Positions 45,985 through 60,862 of a stretch of 64,000 nt of DNA are shown piece after piece. The position numbers were made by a program, and so were the translations under genes. How positions within the stretch are numbered: position 1 is the stretch's first letter; every line of letters begins with the position of its first letter. The notes below the pieces were generated by a model. That model ran no database searches. It was given only the letters and a program-made list of their open reading frames with translations, and was not told the origin of the DNA. This stretch comes from an uncultured Clostridia bacterium (lineage in GTDB: Bacteria; Bacillota; Clostridia; Christensenellales; UBA1242), in NCBI GenBank assembly GCA_944381185.1, contig CALWKE010000001.1, positions 124,001 through 188,000 on the forward strand. The letters are read 5' to 3'.

Positions 45985-46920
45985 CTACTCATACTCAAAT
46001 TCTAGTTCGGTTTTTCTTTCGTAAATTGTGCCGATAATGGTATCTCTTATCGATTTTTGATGAGATTTTTTTGCATAACAATACCTGCAATCATGAAAGC
46101 AAGTATCATACTGTCCAATGTCAATTGATGGCATACAAAGGCAGTTTTTGCGTTGCCCATCAAGTTTATTGTTTTTGCGTTTGACTTGAATTCCCAAATC
46201 TTTATACCTTTCAGTCAAAAGCTTCTCAAAAATTTCGCCGTCAATGCACTTACTTGGAACAATGCCATATTTTGAGTAATCACTTTCAGCACACGCTTCA
46301 ATTTGAATTTCATTTTCACTAGCAATTTTAGAAATCGCAGACAAAATTCTGTCTTTTTGCTGTTCGCTTGGTTTATGCAAATTCTTATCACAGCCCTTAT
46401 AACTTTCAATCAAAAAACTGATTTTGCAATGTTTGGTGTAACCCTTTAATGCTTTTGCCAAATATTCAAACTTTTCAATATGCCAATTTTCATCAATTCC
46501 GTCAGTGACGAGGATTGGGTCATATCTCCAAATAACAGGGCAGTATTTTGAAAGAATTTTGAAACTTTCAATCCTCTCTTCAAGTGGCGGAAGATTTGCT
46601 TCAATTTCTTTTGGGTAGGCGTTGAGAGTGTAAAGAAAATAATATTTAAAGTCTTTCAATTTATCAAGGCTGTTAAGCATAGGTTTTGGGTTCTTTGTCC
46701 AAAAAACGATACCTTCAATATTTCCAGATGTTTCAACTTTCTTTTCTCCAAGTAAATTTGTTTCAACACTCTCAATCTTCAGCGGTTTAAGTGCAATTTT
46801 TGCAATTTTTTCGTGTGCAATAGGGTTTGGCACCAAAACAAAACCTTGATCTAATTGCTTAAAAAACCAATCACTATAAAACGCAGGAATGTCAGTTCGT
46901 CTTGAAACACTTAAAATCAT
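45985..46920 (-). CDS. DUF1848 family protein with C-terminal cysteine cluster
   Basis: A 311-residue protein of the DUF1848 family. The N-terminal SVSRRTDIPAFYSDWF is the family signature, and GIVFWTKNPKPM follows. The C-terminus has CLCMPSIDIGQYDTC followed by HDCRYCYAK, a cluster with CxxxCxxC spacing that suggests an iron-sulfur site like that of radical SAM enzymes, although placed at the C-terminus. Function is not established. TTGGAG precedes the ATG. The gene abuts the truncated element B2, which covers its 3' side. Confidence 0.8.
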   Translation of the reverse strand: MILSVSRRTDIPAFYSDWFFKQLDQGFVLVPNPIAHEKIAKIALKPLKIESVETNLLGEKKVETSGNIEGIVFWTKNPKPMLNSLDKLKDFKYYFLYTLNAYPKEIEANLPPLEERIESFKILSKYCPVIWRYDPILVTDGIDENWHIEKFEYLAKALKGYTKHCKISFLIESYKGCDKNLHKPSEQQKDRILSAISKIASENEIQIEACAESDYSKYGIVPSKCIDGEIFEKLLTERYKDLGIQVKRKNNKLDGQRKNCLCMPSIDIGQYDTCFHDCRYCYAKKSHQKSIRDTIIGTIYERKTELEFEYE

Positions 46921-46932
46921 ATAAACTCCAAC

Positions 46933-47190
46933 TTATTTTATTTTTCCACTTATAATTATACCTTTTCCATCTAAAATTTCAAAACTATTATAACTAAAAG
47001 AATTTAATTCTCTTCTCAAACTTTTTAAAAAATCCATTTCTTCTTTTGGCATGTGATAGTTATTATTTATCGTATAATCACAAATGATGTAAAAGTTGCT
47101 TTAAACATTCAAATTGTTCTTTTGGTTGAAAATAATCATAAATTTGGCGATGCTTCCCTTTTGGTTTTAACACTTAACATCGCGCCTGTA
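46933..47190 (-). pseudogene. Decayed gene remnant
   Basis: On the minus strand one frame reads KPKGKHRQIYDYF...EQFECLKQLLHHL before a stop, and a second frame carries on with CDYTINNNYHMPKEEMDFL up to the stop at 46933, ending DGKGIIISGKIK. Together they read as the C-terminal part of one protein split by a frameshift, with no usable start. I do not recognise the family. The rest of this 380-bp gap holds only the terminator at 47219. Confidence 0.45.
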
Positions 47191-47218
47191 GAATAATAAT
47201 ATAATCAATTTAAAACAT

Positions 47219-47250
47219 AAAAAAGGTCATAAGATAAGTGACCTTTTTTA
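47219..47250 (-). terminator. Terminator of PRTase-DprA-HAD operon
   Basis: AAAAAGGTCA/TGACCTTTTT hairpin with T-tracts on both strands. Confidence 0.75.
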
Positions 47251-47298
47251 TTTTTTACAAACCATAGAATCAAATTTAGATAAAATTTTAGATTATTA

Positions 47299-47826
47299 TC
47301 AAACCAAGTATCCCCTAACATCAAACTTTTGATTTTTTATAACATCAATAATTTTATAATTTTTGCTTACAAAAAAATCCCTATTATTTTCATAAATAAC
47401 AATTTGTTTTGAATTTACATAATTTTTAAGTTTTGTGATAGATTCTTCAAATGATATTTTTTTATCAAAAATAACTTCTTTAAAATATCTGTCAAGTTTA
47501 CATTCTTCTAATATTTTTAATACTCTTGTTTTATTAGCCTTTGTCCATAAAAAACAATTAGATTTTTTATAAATTTCTAACTTTTTTATAATTAATTCAT
47601 TTAATGTTATTCTATATTTTAACCAATCTTGACAAAAATATAATTGTTTTAGTTCTATAATTTTATCTAATTTTAATTTATCAATAAATTTAAATTTTTC
47701 ACGAGTTAATCTCTCACTTGTCACTATTCTGCTATAACCATATTTCTCAAGTGCAAAATTATATGCATCATTATTTAAATTAGTAGAATTTATAAGAGTA
47801 TCATCAAGATCTACAAAATATTTCAA
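47299..47826 (-). CDS. HAD-family hydrolase
   Basis: A 175-residue small HAD phosphatase. Motif I is FVDLDDTLIN at the N-terminus; motif II Thr is probably in FLWTKANK (about residue 94); an acidic motif IV candidate is IYENNRD. The cap is small. The start is a TTG, one base after the DprA-like stop, with AAGGAA upstream. Third gene of a tight operon with a DprA-like and a PRTase-like gene; it may act on a nucleotide or sugar phosphate linked to those. Confidence 0.75.
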   Translation of the reverse strand: MKYFVDLDDTLINSTNLNNDAYNFALEKYGYSRIVTSERLTREKFKFIDKLKLDKIIELKQLYFCQDWLKYRITLNELIIKKLEIYKKSNCFLWTKANKTRVLKILEECKLDRYFKEVIFDKKISFEESITKLKNYVNSKQIVIYENNRDFFVSKNYKIIDVIKNQKFDVRGYLV

Positions 47827-47827
47827 T

Positions 47828-48661
47828 TTAAAACAATTCCTTTATATTTTTATTTGTTAAAATTTCTGCACCATCATCATTTTGAATTATATTGAGTTCG
47901 AAAATTTTTCTATTTAAATCAGTATTTTTATTAAACATTACATATCTCTTCTTTTTATATTCTTTTGCTTTTTGTAATGCATGACGTGACCCACTATCAC
48001 CATTTTTTCCAGCAAAACTGGCAACTAAAATAACTGCTTTTGAAAATAAAGCTTGAAGTCTATCTCGTTCAATAAATCTCTTTAATCTTTCAAACTTATT
48101 TTTTGGTTCAACAATATATTCTGTTAAAATAAGTCCTTTATTTTTAATTATCTCCTCTGCCAATAATTTATTTTCATTTGGATAAATTTTATCTAAAGTT
48201 GATGGCAGAATTGCAATTGTTTTCCCTTTTAAAGATAAACATGTTTTATGAGCGGTTGTATCACAACCTTTTGCAAGCCCACTAATAATATTTATACCAT
48301 TATTTACTAATTCTTTAACTATTTTTTCTTCTCTTTGTTCAATATCTTTCGTGGGTGTTAAAACCCCTATAATAGCTATATTTTTACTTATGTCTTCAAT
48401 TAAATTAAAATTACCTTTATATGCAAAAATAAAAGGTTTTTCACTATTTTTTATTTTTAAATTAAAGATTGGAAAGTTTCTATCAAAAACAGAAATTAAA
48501 CTAATTTCTTTCTCTTTTAATTCATCTTCGTAAAAAAATAAATCAATGTCTGTGTTATTTATCTTCTTTTCATCAAAAAATTCACGCCAAAACATAGCAT
48601 TTGATTTTATTATACCTTGTTTTATCATTCCGTATAATTTTAATGATATTTTTGAAAACAT
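47828..48661 (-). CDS. DprA/SLOG-family nucleotide-binding protein
   Basis: A 277-residue protein with the DprA Rossmann-like core. Key motifs: NGINIISGLAKGCDTTAHK near residue 130 (in DprA: SGLAxGID..AH), TIAILPSTLDKIYPNEN, LILTEY, and FIERDRLQALFSKAVILV, which matches the FPxRNRIIAGLS block. It lacks the C-terminal winged helix of competence DprA and is not next to topA or smf-type genes. DprA-like proteins in this kind of operon belong to the SLOG superfamily, thought to sense or process nucleotides in anti-phage and stress systems. Its start lies one base after the PRTase stop. Confidence 0.8.
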   Translation of the reverse strand: MFSKISLKLYGMIKQGIIKSNAMFWREFFDEKKINNTDIDLFFYEDELKEKEISLISVFDRNFPIFNLKIKNSEKPFIFAYKGNFNLIEDISKNIAIIGVLTPTKDIEQREEKIVKELVNNGINIISGLAKGCDTTAHKTCLSLKGKTIAILPSTLDKIYPNENKLLAEEIIKNKGLILTEYIVEPKNKFERLKRFIERDRLQALFSKAVILVASFAGKNGDSGSRHALQKAKEYKKKRYVMFNKNTDLNRKIFELNIIQNDDGAEILTNKNIKELF

Positions 48662-48662
48662 A

Positions 48663-49262
48663 TTAACCTCTTGTTTTTGCTATTACATAAAGTATAACAT
48701 CTTTTGCCCCTAAATCAAATAATGTTTGTATACAATCTTCAACAACATTAACATTCGGTGTATAAATATCATCTACCAATATAATATTTTTATCTTTTAT
48801 TCTGTTTTTATTTATTTCACATGTATCTAAAGTTATTCCTTTATATGGAGTCTTACCTGTGTTATTTTCAAGTCTCCAATCATGTGTCGTTTTTGTGTTT
48901 TTTATTCTATGAATAATATTTGTTCCATTTTCAAGACCTAAATTATCAACAATACATGAAATAGCTTTTTTAAATAAAAGCTGTGATTGATTATAACTTT
49001 TCTCTATTTTTGAGCGTGGAATCACACACACTAAATAATTTAAACTATTATTTATTAATTTTTTAATATCTTCAAATGCTTTTTCGTATACTTCAATAAA
49101 ATCATTTACTAAATCTAATTCATTATATTTTTTAGACATATTTTTTAAATGATTAATAAAATCTGGATTACCTTTTTTTTGATAACCAATATATTCACAA
49201 TTATAAAATGCAAAAACATCTCTATTTATATAATTATTCTTTTTAATTATAAACTTTTTCAT
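48663..49262 (-). CDS. Phosphoribosyltransferase-like protein (ComF-like)
   Basis: A 199-residue protein whose C-terminal half has the PRTase fold: NIILVDDIYTPNVNVVEDC near residue 160 corresponds to the PRPP loop DDVxTTGxT, and VIPRSKIEKSYNQSQLLFKK resembles the ComF hood (P.......R.fNq...la). The loop has lost its usual TTG, so PRPP transfer may be weak or absent. An AAGGAG site sets the start. First gene of the three-gene operon. Confidence 0.7.
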   Translation of the reverse strand: MKKFIIKKNNYINRDVFAFYNCEYIGYQKKGNPDFINHLKNMSKKYNELDLVNDFIEVYEKAFEDIKKLINNSLNYLVCVIPRSKIEKSYNQSQLLFKKAISCIVDNLGLENGTNIIHRIKNTKTTHDWRLENNTGKTPYKGITLDTCEINKNRIKDKNIILVDDIYTPNVNVVEDCIQTLFDLGAKDVILYVIAKTRG

Positions 49263-55224: not shown

Positions 55225-55239
55225 TAAAATCTTATATTA

Positions 55240-56133
55240 ATTTTATCACCTTATTCTTATTTGGTATGGTATAATAAAGGTGCTTCATTAGGACAATCTA
55301 ATTATGTTTTAGTTTCCTATTCTTATTTGGTATGGTATAATATATCAAAAATAAGGGAGTTATTAAATATGGTTTTAGTTCCCTATTCTTATTTGGTATG
55401 GTATAATTAATCAATTTATGACAAATAAAGCCAATTAGTTTTAGTTCCCTATTCTTATTTGGTATGGTATAATTATGGCTCTGGCGATGGCGATGGCTCT
55501 GGCGTTTTAGTTCCCTATTCTTATTTGGTATGGTATAATAAGATAGCGGAAGTTGACGAACGCATAAAAGTTTTAGTTCCCTATTCTTATTTGGTATGGT
55601 ATAATTAGTTTTTTCTAAATAAATTCTCTTCAAGAGTTTTAGTTCCCTATTCTTATTTGGTATGGTATAATCCAAGCAGTTTAACGGTAACTGAAAAATC
55701 TGTTTTAGTTCCCTATTCTTATTTGGTATGGTATAATCTCCAGACTGATCAAAGTCATCAGTGTTATGTTTTAGTTCCCTATTCTTATTTGGTATGGTAT
55801 AATCTGATTTTATAGATTCGCTATTAATGGAAAGTTTTAGTTCCCTATTCTTATTTGGTATGGTATAATAAAAATTAATTATAGACATTGGGAAGATGAG
55901 TTTTAGTTCCCTATTCTTATTTGGTATGGTATAATAGATGAAGTTAGAGTAACAGAGAGGGGTTGGTTTTAGTTCCCTATTCTTATTTGGTATGGTATAA
56001 TTGCGGCAAGCACGGCAATTGCTTTAAACAAGTTTTAGTTCCCTATTCTTATTTGGTATGGTATAATTTCATAAAGTGGTGCAATATTATCAATGATGTT
56101 TTAGTTCCCTATTCTTATTTGGTATGGTATAAT
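55240..56133 (+). CRISPR. Type II-C CRISPR array, 14 repeats and 13 spacers
   Basis: Fourteen 36-bp repeats start every 66 bp from 55240 to 56098, with thirteen 30-bp spacers. The repeat begins GTTTTAGTTCCC and ends TTTGGTATGGTATAAT. Repeat 1 (55240) is degenerate in its first 12 bases, repeat 2 has one change (TTTCC), and the rest are identical. The repeat end TGGTATAAT is an extended -10 promoter element, so each spacer is probably transcribed from its own repeat on the plus strand. The degenerate end is far from cas2, which suggests that new spacers enter at the cas2 side. Confidence 0.97.
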
Positions 56134-56145
56134 AGGTTACTAAAA
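56131..56145 (+). repeat. Array flank identical to part of tracrRNA anti-repeat
   Basis: AATAGGTTACTAAAA, directly at the end of the last repeat, matches 15 of 15 bases of the tracrRNA anti-repeat (61086 to 61069 region, minus strand) and could pair with the first half of the last repeat (13 of 15). Confidence 0.6.
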
Positions 56146-56192
56146 AAAACACTTAACTATTGAATTTATCAGTAGTTAAGTATTTTTATTTT
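56141..56192. terminator. Bidirectional terminator between array and cas operon
   Basis: ACTTAACTA/TAGTTAAGT hairpin (56151-56181) with T-tracts on both strands (TATTTTTATTTT on plus; eight T on minus). It can end both the crRNA transcripts and the cas operon. The 50 bp up to cas2 are AT-rich and may hold the leader. Confidence 0.75.
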
Positions 56193-56242
56193 ATTTAAAA
56201 ATTAAAAAATTCTTAATTAAAAATGATAATATTTTACTTTTT

Positions 56243-56551
56243 TTAAAAAAATGAAAGTTGTTGTGAATTAATTTTCTTTTCTTTCTTTTTTATTTGCCCT
56301 GTTAGAACTGACATGCTTGCATATTGCCTTTCAGTAACAATCATAGCACGAACAGAACCCACTTTTGGCACTTGAAGTGAAACACGGTCTTTATGAAGTT
56401 CAGCCGATTCAATTGTATTGCAAATTCTGCCATACAAACTAAACTGAATCATATAAAACCCATCTTTAATCAAAAAATTTCTAAATTGAGTTGCCTGCCT
56501 TCGCTCTGACTTTGTTTTTACTGGCAAATCAAAAAATATTAATAATCTCAT
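56243..56551 (-). CDS. cas2: CRISPR-associated endonuclease Cas2
   Basis: Cas2 supports spacer integration together with Cas1. The N-terminus MRLLIFFDLPV with the conserved Asp and the RRQATQFRNFL region are typical of type II Cas2. I choose the ATG at 56551 (102 aa), 4 bp after cas1, with an AGTAGG site; longer starts overlap cas1. The C-terminus is Lys-rich and ends LSFF. Confidence 0.93.
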   Translation of the reverse strand: MRLLIFFDLPVKTKSERRQATQFRNFLIKDGFYMIQFSLYGRICNTIESAELHKDRVSLQVPKVGSVRAMIVTERQYASMSVLTGQIKKKEKKINSQQLSFF

Positions 56552-56555
56552 AAAC

Positions 56556-57449
56556 CTACTCATACTTATGTTCATTCAATCCACAAATATAGACTTGTTT
56601 TAAATTATTTTTACTTTCTTTTAAACTTTTAACATACGACTCAACAACCATTTCAATTGCATTTGAAAGTGTTTGTTTTTGCCCATCAATCAAAACATCA
56701 TAGTTTATGATACCAAAGAGCAATGCCTTTGCTTTTGGCGTTAATTCATCAAAGTTTTCAAGTTTTGCTTTAACAAACAAATCAACCATTGGACGAAAGA
56801 TTTCAATAATATCATCAGCCAAATTGAAGGCATTATATTGATTTGAATGGAAGAGTGCAATAAATGGCAAAAGCCCATGCACAACAATGCTTCGAGCAAT
56901 AAAACCACGAACTATTGAATAACAATAATTTAAACATGAATTAATGAAGTTTTCATCTCTCCTTTTGAAAGATTTTCCAAATAATTCTTTAAAATAAATC
57001 AAACTTGCCTTTGCTTCAACATTCCCTGAATCTCCACTTAAAACTTCATTCTTTAAATTTTTTAATTTGTCAAACTTGCCAAAAATATTTAACACTTCAT
57101 TTTGATTTTCAATTTTATTTTTTATTATTGTTTGCCACAATTGCTTTTGAAGAGGCTTTGAAAGTGAAACTTGAGCATTATAAACCGATAAAGTTTGATA
57201 ATGTTCACAAAATGGCAAAACCACCCCGCAAGGAAGGTGGTTTTGATTACATATAAAAACTAAAATTCCAAACTCTGAACACTTAGATAATGTGTAAGTT
57301 GAAATTGTGGTATTCAAATTTTCAATCATAATGCTATTTATATCTTCAAGTGGATAGTCATTTTGATTTTCGTTATTTTCCAAAAACAACTGACTATTTT
57401 TAACATAAAGTTTTGCATCATTTGAAACATAAATATTAATATATCCCAT
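56556..57449 (-). CDS. cas1: CRISPR-associated endonuclease Cas1
   Basis: Integrase that inserts new spacers. The 297-residue protein has the type II Cas1 layout: N-terminal beta domain, then the catalytic helical domain with the metal-binding Glu in NVEAKASLIYF (about residue 145), His in VVHGLLPFIALFH (about residue 205) and Asp in NLADDIIEIFRP (about residue 221). The ATG overlaps the cas9 stop (TAATG). Confidence 0.96.
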   Translation of the reverse strand: MGYINIYVSNDAKLYVKNSQLFLENNENQNDYPLEDINSIMIENLNTTISTYTLSKCSEFGILVFICNQNHLPCGVVLPFCEHYQTLSVYNAQVSLSKPLQKQLWQTIIKNKIENQNEVLNIFGKFDKLKNLKNEVLSGDSGNVEAKASLIYFKELFGKSFKRRDENFINSCLNYCYSIVRGFIARSIVVHGLLPFIALFHSNQYNAFNLADDIIEIFRPMVDLFVKAKLENFDELTPKAKALLFGIINYDVLIDGQKQTLSNAIEMVVESYVKSLKESKNNLKQVYICGLNEHKYE

Positions 57450-60400
57450 TAAATTGGTTTCCTTTCTTCTTCTGGGGCTTTGTAAACATTGCCCATAATG
57501 TCAACATAATATTTTTCTATATTTAACATTGATTTTACTGGTAAATCACTTGTATAACAATAATCATTTGTATACGCATTTAAAGTCGGCTTTGAAACAT
57601 TAGTCGTGTTATAATACAACAAAAGTTTATTACCTTCAAATTTATCTGGCATTTTTGATTTTGGGTTTTTAAAGTTTTTATTCATAACAATATTTTTTTT
57701 GCTTGTAACTTTAACCAAATCATTTTTATATAAACTGAATTTAAAATTAAATGTATTATCAATAGTCGTCCAATCTTTATCTCTTTCAACAACTTTATTT
57801 GGCAATTTATGTGCATAAACATCTGCCATATAAACTGGACAAATATAAAATTTACCATTTTTTTCAAACACATCAATACGATGCATTGTTCCCCTTCCAT
57901 TTTCAGCTGCACCATTTGGCAAAATAACACATTTAGATAATTTTTTATAGACCTTAACTGTTTTAACAAGTGGACCATCTGTGCCATCACTCTTTGGTTT
58001 ATAAAATTTCATTGTTTCTGGAATTTTTGTTCCGTTTTCAACCAAAAATTCTTTTAGTTTTAAATATAGAAATCTATCATCTTGTGGACGATAATAATTT
58101 TCAATGCTAAATTCAGGATATTTATCATCTTTTAATTTGATTGGTTCTTCTTTTTCTTTTACATCTAAACTATAAATAGAAACTGACTTTATTAAATTTT
58201 TGGTTTCCTTATATTCCCTTGTGCTCATTATTGTTTCAGCATGAATTGGACCCGTGCTTTTAACATTTTTCATTCGGCTCACAAAAATTGGTTTTGCTGA
58301 TTTTAACTCTTCATCAAAGTAGCCCATTTTTGCAAGTTCAATTTTTTCGTTATCAGAAAAGTCAAAATTAAAATATTCTGCCCTACTTCTAATTTCAAGT
58401 TCTCTTAAAAACCATTCATAAGGCTGTGGCAACTTGCCACTCAACATATTGATGTTTTGTTTTTCAAATTCTTCCTTTTCTTCTTTTGTTAAAACTTCTC
58501 CAGTTACTTTATTTATAAATAAATCATCATGTTTAACAAACTTCTCTTTGAATTTATTAAATTTTGTTATTTTTTGAACAGTGCTGTCACTAACAGTTGC
58601 AATAACGGCAGCATCAACAGCATGATGTGTGTCGCCGTCATCACGAATTTTATTTATGCCCCAACACTTACGAAGATAACTTGTAACTGCACCATTAACG
58701 CTATAAACAACCTTTCTTTTGCCTTCTGTTTTTTCTTTTACAGGCTTCATCTGCAAGTAATCTTTAAAAAGTTCAAGAAGAAGTTTAGACATATATCTTG
58801 TGTCATTAAGATTTCTTGAAATATATTCTTTTTGGTCATCTTCAGAAATTGTCTGTTTTAAAAGATTTCGCTGTTTTTCTCTATTTTTCAAAAGTGAAAC
58901 ACGAGCCACAAAATCATTCCACTTCTTTTCATCACCGCCGAAAAATTCATAAGGTGTGCGGTCGCCCTTGTTTTGATTTTCGTTGGCAATAACCAAAACC
59001 TTGTTATTGTAACTATCATTCATGCTTTTGCTTATTGGAAGAATATGGTCAATTTGCAGATAATTTGGCTCGAAAAGTCGCTCTGTTTCAATTGTTTTCC
59101 CGCTATACATACACTTGCCAGCTTGCTCTTCATAAAGTTTAAGTTTAAGTATGTCTTGACCGGTTGGCTTTGTTAAATGAAATTCATTTGTGAGTCTATC
59201 TATAATTTTTTCATTATCTTCACTTCTTTTTTGCTGATTTTTTTCAATCTTATTTCTATCAGACAACGACCTTCCAAGTTCTCTTGCAAGTTCAATTGAA
59301 ACAAATTGTGGTGAGCCATATTTTTTTATTATTTCATTTAAAATTCGAAGTGTTTGATTAACTGACCTTCTAACAACATTATTTGTTACATCTGCAAGCC
59401 TTTCATCAACTGCATCACCTTTTAAATACTTTAATTTTTCATGCTCAAAACTGCTATGGTTAAACCCTGCTTCTTGACACGCTTTATCATATCTTAAACC
59501 TTGAAATAAATATGGTTCAATCATTTTCATTGCTTTAATTGAAAGTGAACCAAACTTATCAAAATTAAGTTTCTTGATATTATCAATTTGTTCGTTTGTT
59601 AAATTTTTAAGTGTGTCACTATTTTTTATATATTCATCGATGGTTGAATCACTTTTAAAATGTGAAAGCATAAAAGCAATTTCATCAATCAAATCTCTAT
59701 TTTCAAAAGAAGTATCAAACATTAAAGCCTTGCGAATTTCATAACTGCTTGCCATTTTAACAAAAACTCGGCTTTCACATTTTTTGATATATTCATCTTG
59801 TGGAAGGTCATTTTCTTTTTTTGTTAAATAATAACTGCACAAATTAAAAAATTTATCACTTTCAACATTTAACAATTTTCTGACATCTGAAAACTTTAGT
59901 TCTTTTTTCTCTTTTATAATTTCATATAATTTTTGTTTTTGCTCTAATTCTAACTCTTTACCATCAATTTTTAAATTGTTAATCTTTGATAGTGCACTGA
60001 ATAGTTCAAATGTATATGATGCTTTTGGTGCACGCCTTTCAGATTTAATAAAGGTGCAGAAACCTTCTTCAATACGTGCTGAATATGGACTACCTTCGCC
60101 CGGACCTTCATCAAAATTTCTCTGTGCTTCAAAAATTGAAATGACCTTATTAATAAAATTGTCAGTAATTTTACTATTTCCGAATTTTTGTTGTGAATTT
60201 AAAATTAACTTTAACTCTTCTGAAAGATTTGCTCTATAAAAACAATTTGAATAGTCACCTGAATGATTACGAATATTATAAATAACATTTCCCGCTGAAT
60301 TAGTTTTAAATTTTTCATCTTTAAAAAGCATTTCACCAATTGTTCTGTAACCTTTTTCTTCTAAATATTTAGTGTTATCCGAAATTGCTTTTAAAAGTTT

Positions 60401-60862
60401 GCCTTCTTCCTTGCTTGCCTCTTGATTTTTTCTATTACTTTTAAAACCACGACGTTTTAAAATATGCAAAATTACTTTTGAAAGTTGGGCGTCTGTTAAC
60501 TTTTCATCAAGAGCCTTTGCACGAAGTTCATAAACATCTGCAGGCTTGATGTCATTATTCTTATCACCAAAATTTAACAAATCAACTTCTTTAAAAATAT
60601 CTTTTCCAAAGGTTTTTTTAATTAAATTTTTCATTCTAACAAAACGAAATTCTTTTCTTCGTTTTCTTCTTCTGATACCTCTTGCTTCCCTTCGTTTTTT
60701 TGCTGTGCTTTCCCCTGTTTTTTCAACTTCATTAGGACTGAAAGTTCTAACACCAACTTTTATTATTCTTGTTGGTTCTTCTGTTACAGGGTCATTTTCT
60801 AAAACAGCATAACCAACACTTCCAATCCCAATATCAAATCCTACTCTATAAAACTTATCCAT
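57449..60862 (-). CDS. cas9: CRISPR-associated endonuclease Cas9, type II-C
   Basis: RNA-guided DNA endonuclease of 1137 residues, in the size range of II-C Cas9 and slightly above the Neisseria protein. RuvC-I Asp10 (VGFDIGIGSVGY), arginine-rich bridge helix (KKRREARGIRRRKRRKEFR, about residues 55-73), RuvC-II Glu in VSIELARELG (about 524), HNH motif LQIDHILPISKS with NENQNKG (about 602-630), and RuvC-III HHAVDAAVIA (about 746) are all intact, so both nucleases should be active. AAGGAG sets the start. There is no csn2 or cas4, which fits type II-C. Confidence 0.98.
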   Translation of the reverse strand: MDKFYRVGFDIGIGSVGYAVLENDPVTEEPTRIIKVGVRTFSPNEVEKTGESTAKKRREARGIRRRKRRKEFRFVRMKNLIKKTFGKDIFKEVDLLNFGDKNNDIKPADVYELRAKALDEKLTDAQLSKVILHILKRRGFKSNRKNQEASKEEGKLLKAISDNTKYLEEKGYRTIGEMLFKDEKFKTNSAGNVIYNIRNHSGDYSNCFYRANLSEELKLILNSQQKFGNSKITDNFINKVISIFEAQRNFDEGPGEGSPYSARIEEGFCTFIKSERRAPKASYTFELFSALSKINNLKIDGKELELEQKQKLYEIIKEKKELKFSDVRKLLNVESDKFFNLCSYYLTKKENDLPQDEYIKKCESRVFVKMASSYEIRKALMFDTSFENRDLIDEIAFMLSHFKSDSTIDEYIKNSDTLKNLTNEQIDNIKKLNFDKFGSLSIKAMKMIEPYLFQGLRYDKACQEAGFNHSSFEHEKLKYLKGDAVDERLADVTNNVVRRSVNQTLRILNEIIKKYGSPQFVSIELARELGRSLSDRNKIEKNQQKRSEDNEKIIDRLTNEFHLTKPTGQDILKLKLYEEQAGKCMYSGKTIETERLFEPNYLQIDHILPISKSMNDSYNNKVLVIANENQNKGDRTPYEFFGGDEKKWNDFVARVSLLKNREKQRNLLKQTISEDDQKEYISRNLNDTRYMSKLLLELFKDYLQMKPVKEKTEGKRKVVYSVNGAVTSYLRKCWGINKIRDDGDTHHAVDAAVIATVSDSTVQKITKFNKFKEKFVKHDDLFINKVTGEVLTKEEKEEFEKQNINMLSGKLPQPYEWFLRELEIRSRAEYFNFDFSDNEKIELAKMGYFDEELKSAKPIFVSRMKNVKSTGPIHAETIMSTREYKETKNLIKSVSIYSLDVKEKEEPIKLKDDKYPEFSIENYYRPQDDRFLYLKLKEFLVENGTKIPETMKFYKPKSDGTDGPLVKTVKVYKKLSKCVILPNGAAENGRGTMHRIDVFEKNGKFYICPVYMADVYAHKLPNKVVERDKDWTTIDNTFNFKFSLYKNDLVKVTSKKNIVMNKNFKNPKSKMPDKFEGNKLLLYYNTTNVSKPTLNAYTNDYCYTSDLPVKSMLNIEKYYVDIMGNVYKAPEEERKPI

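Follow-up and report, generated by a model that had tools for sequence, protein, structure and literature searches.

The antitoxins of the shosTA, syrTA, and rqlHI systems are DprA homologues, and a DprA-phosphoribosyltransferase (PRTase) pair of a P2-like phage guards E. coli against T7 and lambda (PMC9122126). PMC12593503, summarizing Pu et al. 2025, describes ShosT as a phosphoribosyltransferase and pyrophosphatase that disturbs the purine pool and thereby causes DNA duplications, filamentation, and death; it describes ShosA as a DNA-binding protein that counteracts ShosT, with T7 Gp0.7 as a trigger. In the RqlHI system, RqlI is needed to keep the PRTase domain of RqlH from being genotoxic (PMC4670107). 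Solved structures exist for ShosT (PDB 8zvb-8zvd, 9w2p, and 9w2q) and ShosA (9vzo). The ShosT of Pf phage PfAC02a is one protein of 478 amino acids (aa) with an N-terminal HAD domain (HAD_2, 3.9e-23) followed by the PRTase, and its record is annotated accordingly. Both this protein and a Psychrobacter relative, which lies on a plasmid, are HAD-PRTase fusions adjoining DprA. The P2-type ShosT (PADLOC, 973 bits; phmmer, 977 bits to the crystallized ShosT 8zvb, to which it is identical or nearly so) has a HAD-like N-terminus where DxDxT reads SIADV and the nucleophile Asp is lost. In the literature consulted, the HAD-PRTase fusion is a subtype feature and not a defining criterion of ShosTA.

The window analyzed here is the whole 64,000-nucleotide stretch of DNA, taken from a clostridial genome of 1.37 Mb in 5 contigs. 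Three open reading frames (ORFs) lie on its minus strand at positions 47299-49262, in the order PRTase, DprA-like, and HAD and with a single base between each gene and the next, which agrees with the initial annotation. The features of the locus are as follows.

48663..49262, minus strand: PRTase gene, 199 aa; PRTase part of a split ShosT (predicted toxin)
47828..48661, minus strand: DprA-like gene (277 aa); ShosA, the predicted antitoxin, consisting of the core without winged helix
47299..47826, minus strand: HAD phosphatase gene (175 aa; TTG as start codon); predicted to be the HAD part of ShosT, split off
48735..48773, minus strand: PRPP-loop segment DDIYTPNVNVVED, PRTase residues 164-176, from an alignment of nine relatives
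47797..47811, minus strand: HAD motif I DLDDT, residues 6-10; predicted nucleophile and acid/base
47217..47251, unstranded: terminator-like hairpin of 14 pairs, with A and T tracts on its two sides, just 3′ of the HAD gene

Ribosome-binding-like sequences (AAGGAG and AGAGG) stand ahead of the PRTase and DprA genes, and these two genes, adjacent and separated by one base, would belong to one predicted transcription unit. The hairpin, for which 0.4 are expected in the shuffled region, was called on the plus strand; its A-rich 5′ side would become a U tract on the operon strand. A promoter scan told little in this AT-rich region, with 33 candidates versus 25 expected. The GC content of the operon is 21.9% versus 30.9% for the window, a value that ranks with the four lowest among 621 size-matched windows. 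The flanking decayed gene proposed earlier was not confirmed: the stretch (46921-47298) has no recognizable frame and contains the terminator-like hairpin. A tRNA-Arg (45387) and a tRNA-Asn (54084) are located 1.8 and 4.8 kb off, with no integrase recognized between them.

The DprA-like protein matches Pfam DNA_processg_A (1.5e-40), PADLOC ShosA (3.4e-52, 175.6 bits), and the solved ShosA 9vzo (2.3e-17). Its 277 aa stop after the Rossmann core, while the genome's own DprA frame continues into an extra C-terminal region, in line with its first description as a DprA core without the winged helix. The 199-aa PRTase has no Pfam PRTase match; it is recognized by PADLOC ShosT (E value, 2.1e-9; 35.6 bits), and its best general match is NCBIfam comF (3.5e-6). 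The N-terminal HAD carried within the same protein by the fused ShosT subtype (Pf, Psychrobacter, and P2-type) is absent from it. An AlphaFold model built from four sequences (pLDDT 78, pTM 0.79), a check suggested by the initial annotation, displays a PRTase fold. The top structural match (VIA) of this model is 8zvc, ShosT with PRPP-Mg (Z 11.1, 167 residues, 3.6 Å), over ShosT residues 168-360 and with 15% identity in the structural match; H. pylori ComF 7p0h is practically tied (Z 10.9), and HPRTs follow from Z 8.8. The PRTase is strongly diverged from characterized ShosT and, by Z, about equally near ComF. We consider the locus ShosTA-type, and not a helicase-free PsyrTA, because its proteins match PADLOC ShosT and ShosA and because ShosT and ComF are the closest structures.

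A changed PRPP loop had also been noted in the PRTase, and the change is real, although one part of it is partly local to this copy. The window loop reads DDIYTPNVN. In all nine aligned PRTases, DD[IV]YT keeps both Asp residues, its Tyr, and its Thr, and another residue stands in place of the final Thr of TTGxT. Five of the nine have the canonical Gly (e.g., DDIYTEGVN); it is missing from the window copy, a loss that is partly local since relatives read DDIYTEGVN or DDIYTEGVF. The P2-type ShosT, a protein solved with PRPP-Mg, is likewise non-canonical at the equivalent place (DDFCTEGNA), so the changed loop is no evidence of a dead enzyme. A loss of PRPP binding through this change was dropped on the same ground.

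The third protein was first described as a small HAD phosphatase, and profile searches agree. Its match to Pfam HAD_2 (2e-4) falls slightly below the Pfam cut-off, which the relatives of the gene pass, and a profile of eight HAD relatives finds HAD family IA phosphatases (3kbb, 7.8e-8), with weaker matches to an XMP phosphatase (7ef6, 3.2e-4) and to SSM1 of yeast (0.07). DLDDT, LWT, the K in IFDKK, and YEN represent motifs I to IV of a HAD superfamily (family IA-like) phosphatase. Motif I (DxDxT; D6, D8, and T10) and the Glu of motif IV are invariant in 8/8 intact relatives, and the catalytic residues are intact in all eight unbroken copies. The AlphaFold model of this protein is poor (pLDDT 51) and was left out of the fold search. 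Aligned with the HAD half of ShosT, the HAD of the window clade gives an hhalign probability of 88% over 85 columns, which represents superfamily-level homology only. At that level a true split looks the same as an independent recruitment, and the separate HAD gene may be the latter.

The module is real, conserved, and patchily distributed. A profile of the PRTase clade, run against 396 genomes of the order, found seven carriers, including the window's genome and none of its seven congeners. A class-wide draw added no further carriers, and a phylum-wide draw added one, matching Thermosyntropha lipolytica. The linkage of the three genes seen in the window recurs in six further genomes of the order: PRTase, DprA, and HAD follow in the same order and on the same strand in 6/6 other carriers, with the genes a few bases apart or overlapping in the five intact ones. 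Relatives are 38-69% identical to the PRTase of the window, 33-60% to its DprA, and 22-48% to its HAD. When all eight loci are compared, the pairwise distances of the three proteins are correlated (r = 0.78-0.91; Mantel p = 0.0006 to 0.003); the correlation weakens to r = 0.24-0.60 when the five closest are taken alone. The plasmid pSYLB of Synechocystis PCC 6714 has the rearranged order HAD-PRTase-DprA, and the MAG JZ-1 (L025:4179-5819) has PRTase and DprA fused in one ORF of 546 codons, with the HAD gene just upstream. This natural fusion suggests that the toxin and antitoxin act in one complex. The Thermosyntropha locus has the PRTase-DprA pair with no HAD within the stretch read, so that the HAD is probably not indispensable, while the pair itself is kept in all relatives inspected. 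In a tree of DprA proteins, the ten module DprAs form one supported clade (99/98) separate from the genome's own DprA; the deeper position of this clade among ShosA, PsyrA, and housekeeping DprA lacks resolution. Scans of viral contigs yielded no relatives with any of three queries, namely the DprA protein, an alignment of the PRTases, and a PRPP-loop DNA pattern, and tblastn found nothing for PRTase and HAD in phages or for HAD in plasmids. The scan of genome contigs picked N-terminal patterns and yielded three loci only.

Comparison with described ShosTA systems identified both shared and distinct traits. Shared are a DprA-like and PRTase pair in one operon, additional to the housekeeping genes and located on mobile DNA, a HAD or HAD-like part that ShosT also carries, and, with the P2-type protein, a non-canonical PRPP loop. 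By sequence, ShosT proteins repeatedly combine a HAD with a PRTase, and in the window clade the two are separate genes. The novelty relative to the ShosT proteins compared here is the HAD part as a gene of its own in this clade. This HAD retains its catalytic residues, whereas that of the P2-type ShosT is dead, and the window clade further differs in its PRTase of about 200 aa, in the order PRTase-DprA-HAD, and in the one relative that fuses PRTase to DprA. Separate PRTase, DprA, and HAD genes in this order are also found on a Segatella copri plasmid (L020:2009-4239) and on Sinorhizobium meliloti pHRB800 (L032:2190-4326). These sets, however, have near-canonical PRPP loops (DDIITRGRT and DDFVTRGGT) and standard HADs; their PRTases do not belong to the window clade, and their DprAs fall outside the module clade in the tree.

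Several neighboring genes are suggestive of defense islands. A tyrosine recombinase frame, recognized from sequence, lies directly upstream of the PRTase at two loci (L056 and L026), and a serine recombinase recognized in the same way lies about 3 kb from the set at a third (L060). The Synechocystis set has an AbiD homologue 0.5 kb away, and another set (L058) has a type II methyltransferase and restriction enzyme nearby. A type II CRISPR-Cas locus (window positions 55237-60862, minus strand) encoding a Cas9 of 1137 aa (8.5e-169), Cas1, and a Cas2-like protein lies 6 kb from the operon, beside an array in which a 66-base unit occurs about 13-14 times.

Collectively, we interpret the locus, at a probability of roughly 80%, as a mobile ShosTA-type toxin-antitoxin/phage-defense operon with a split toxin. 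Because known ShosT proteins are HAD-PRTase fusions, the HAD gene is best read as the missing half of that toxin. The toxicity, antitoxin role, and phage defense attributed to the operon are predicted by analogy with published work on ShosTA and RqlHI; the role given to the separate HAD is our own proposal from this analysis. As the ShosT core, the PRTase would bind PRPP and, when unrestrained, would disturb the purine/PRPP pool, after which DNA synthesis would fail and the infected cell would stop growing or die. The HAD enzyme would work with the PRTase in the manner of the HAD domain fused to ShosT elsewhere and probably dephosphorylates the PRTase product or pyrophosphate. The DprA-like ShosA would bind single-stranded DNA and either restrain the toxin or repair its damage until a phage upsets ShosA.

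We put forward more tentatively that the operon is a three-component ShosTA, in which the active separate HAD would be an obligate partner of the PRTase with its rewritten PRPP loop. The two enzymes might then act in two successive steps on a nucleotide or PRPP derivative absent from the products of two-gene ShosTA systems, with the DprA-like protein as a DNA-sensing control. It is also imaginable, though rather unlikely, that within a ShosTA-type module the HAD stands on the antidote side and destroys a toxic nucleotide or PRPP derivative made by the PRTase, as a second antitoxin or a house-cleaning enzyme. Such a role would suit a separate gene placed downstream of the antitoxin gene, as is often seen with accessory antidotes, a Thermosyntropha locus that manages without HAD, and the nucleotide phosphatases among the matches of the HAD profile. 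The fusion of HAD to the toxin in other ShosT proteins argues against it, however, as does the position of the HAD gene in Synechocystis and JZ-1, where it comes first, ahead of the PRTase. In the carrier G641 (L061:607-2600), a frameshift breaks the PRTase, a stop codon interrupts motif I of the HAD, and the DprA-like gene is open, a pattern that fits toxin genes decaying while the antitoxin remains; with PRTase and HAD both broken, this single case is silent on the side to which the HAD belongs.

A competence or DNA-uptake operon, combining DprA with a ComF-like protein, or a nucleotide-salvage operon instead of a conflict system is quite improbable. Transformation does use both DprA and ComF, and the PRTase resembles ComF in its NCBIfam match and, structurally, as closely as ShosT. 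The window's genome, however, has a separate comF at C1:226207 and, on contig C2, a longer, full-length dprA (258 bits). The operon is therefore additional to the housekeeping set, with which it shares folds, and its DprA-like gene is not the only dprA of the genome, a point on which the first interpretation had depended. The missing winged helix, the very patchy distribution with absence from congeners, and the occurrence on a plasmid near an AbiD-like gene and beside recombinases likewise speak against an uptake or salvage function, and the competence reading was dropped. The same genome has a third weak DprA-family match at C1:441773-442168 (L003; 3e-5, a 181-aa frame), which is perhaps another SLOG-fold protein.

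Least probable of all is a PsyrTA/RqlHI-type system that lost its RecQ helicase: it shares the logic of a DprA-like antitoxin and a PRTase toxin domain (PMC4670107), and PsyrA (4.7e-17) and PsyrT (1.6e-4) match weakly, but ShosA outscores PsyrA (175.6 versus 60.2 bits) and ShosT outscores PsyrT (35.6 versus 18.1 bits), the PRTase of those systems sits behind a RecQ helicase while that of the window is a 199-aa protein with no RecQ-family helicase fused to it, no helicase was recognized beside the operon, either in the window or at the related loci inspected, and a PsyrTA-like plasmid locus consists of DprA and RecQ without a separate HAD. The initial annotation had proposed a nucleotide-centered conflict system, specifically a helicase-free variant of this type with a HAD partner. 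A conflict system of this nature resting on a DprA/PRTase pair is supported, and the linkage recurs, but the helicase-free variant is not the best description and was abandoned: the pair scores far better as ShosA/ShosT, ShosTA is itself a known DprA/PRTase system that lacks a helicase, and a HAD or HAD-like domain is already part of known ShosT.

The ShosTA-type reading would add small-genome bacteria of this order and a cyanobacterial plasmid to the range of these systems; there, public ShosT models score the PRTase weakly and leave the HAD gene unlisted. The PRTase chemistry of ShosT and the reason for its accompanying HAD are still thinly documented in the literature consulted, and with HAD, PRTase, and DprA as separate conserved genes each activity can be switched off singly. 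Adjoining the operon is a DUF1848 gene (45985-46920), a family with no match in the congeners; elsewhere in the window's genome, DUF1848 matches at two more places, of which one is short (a 177-aa frame).
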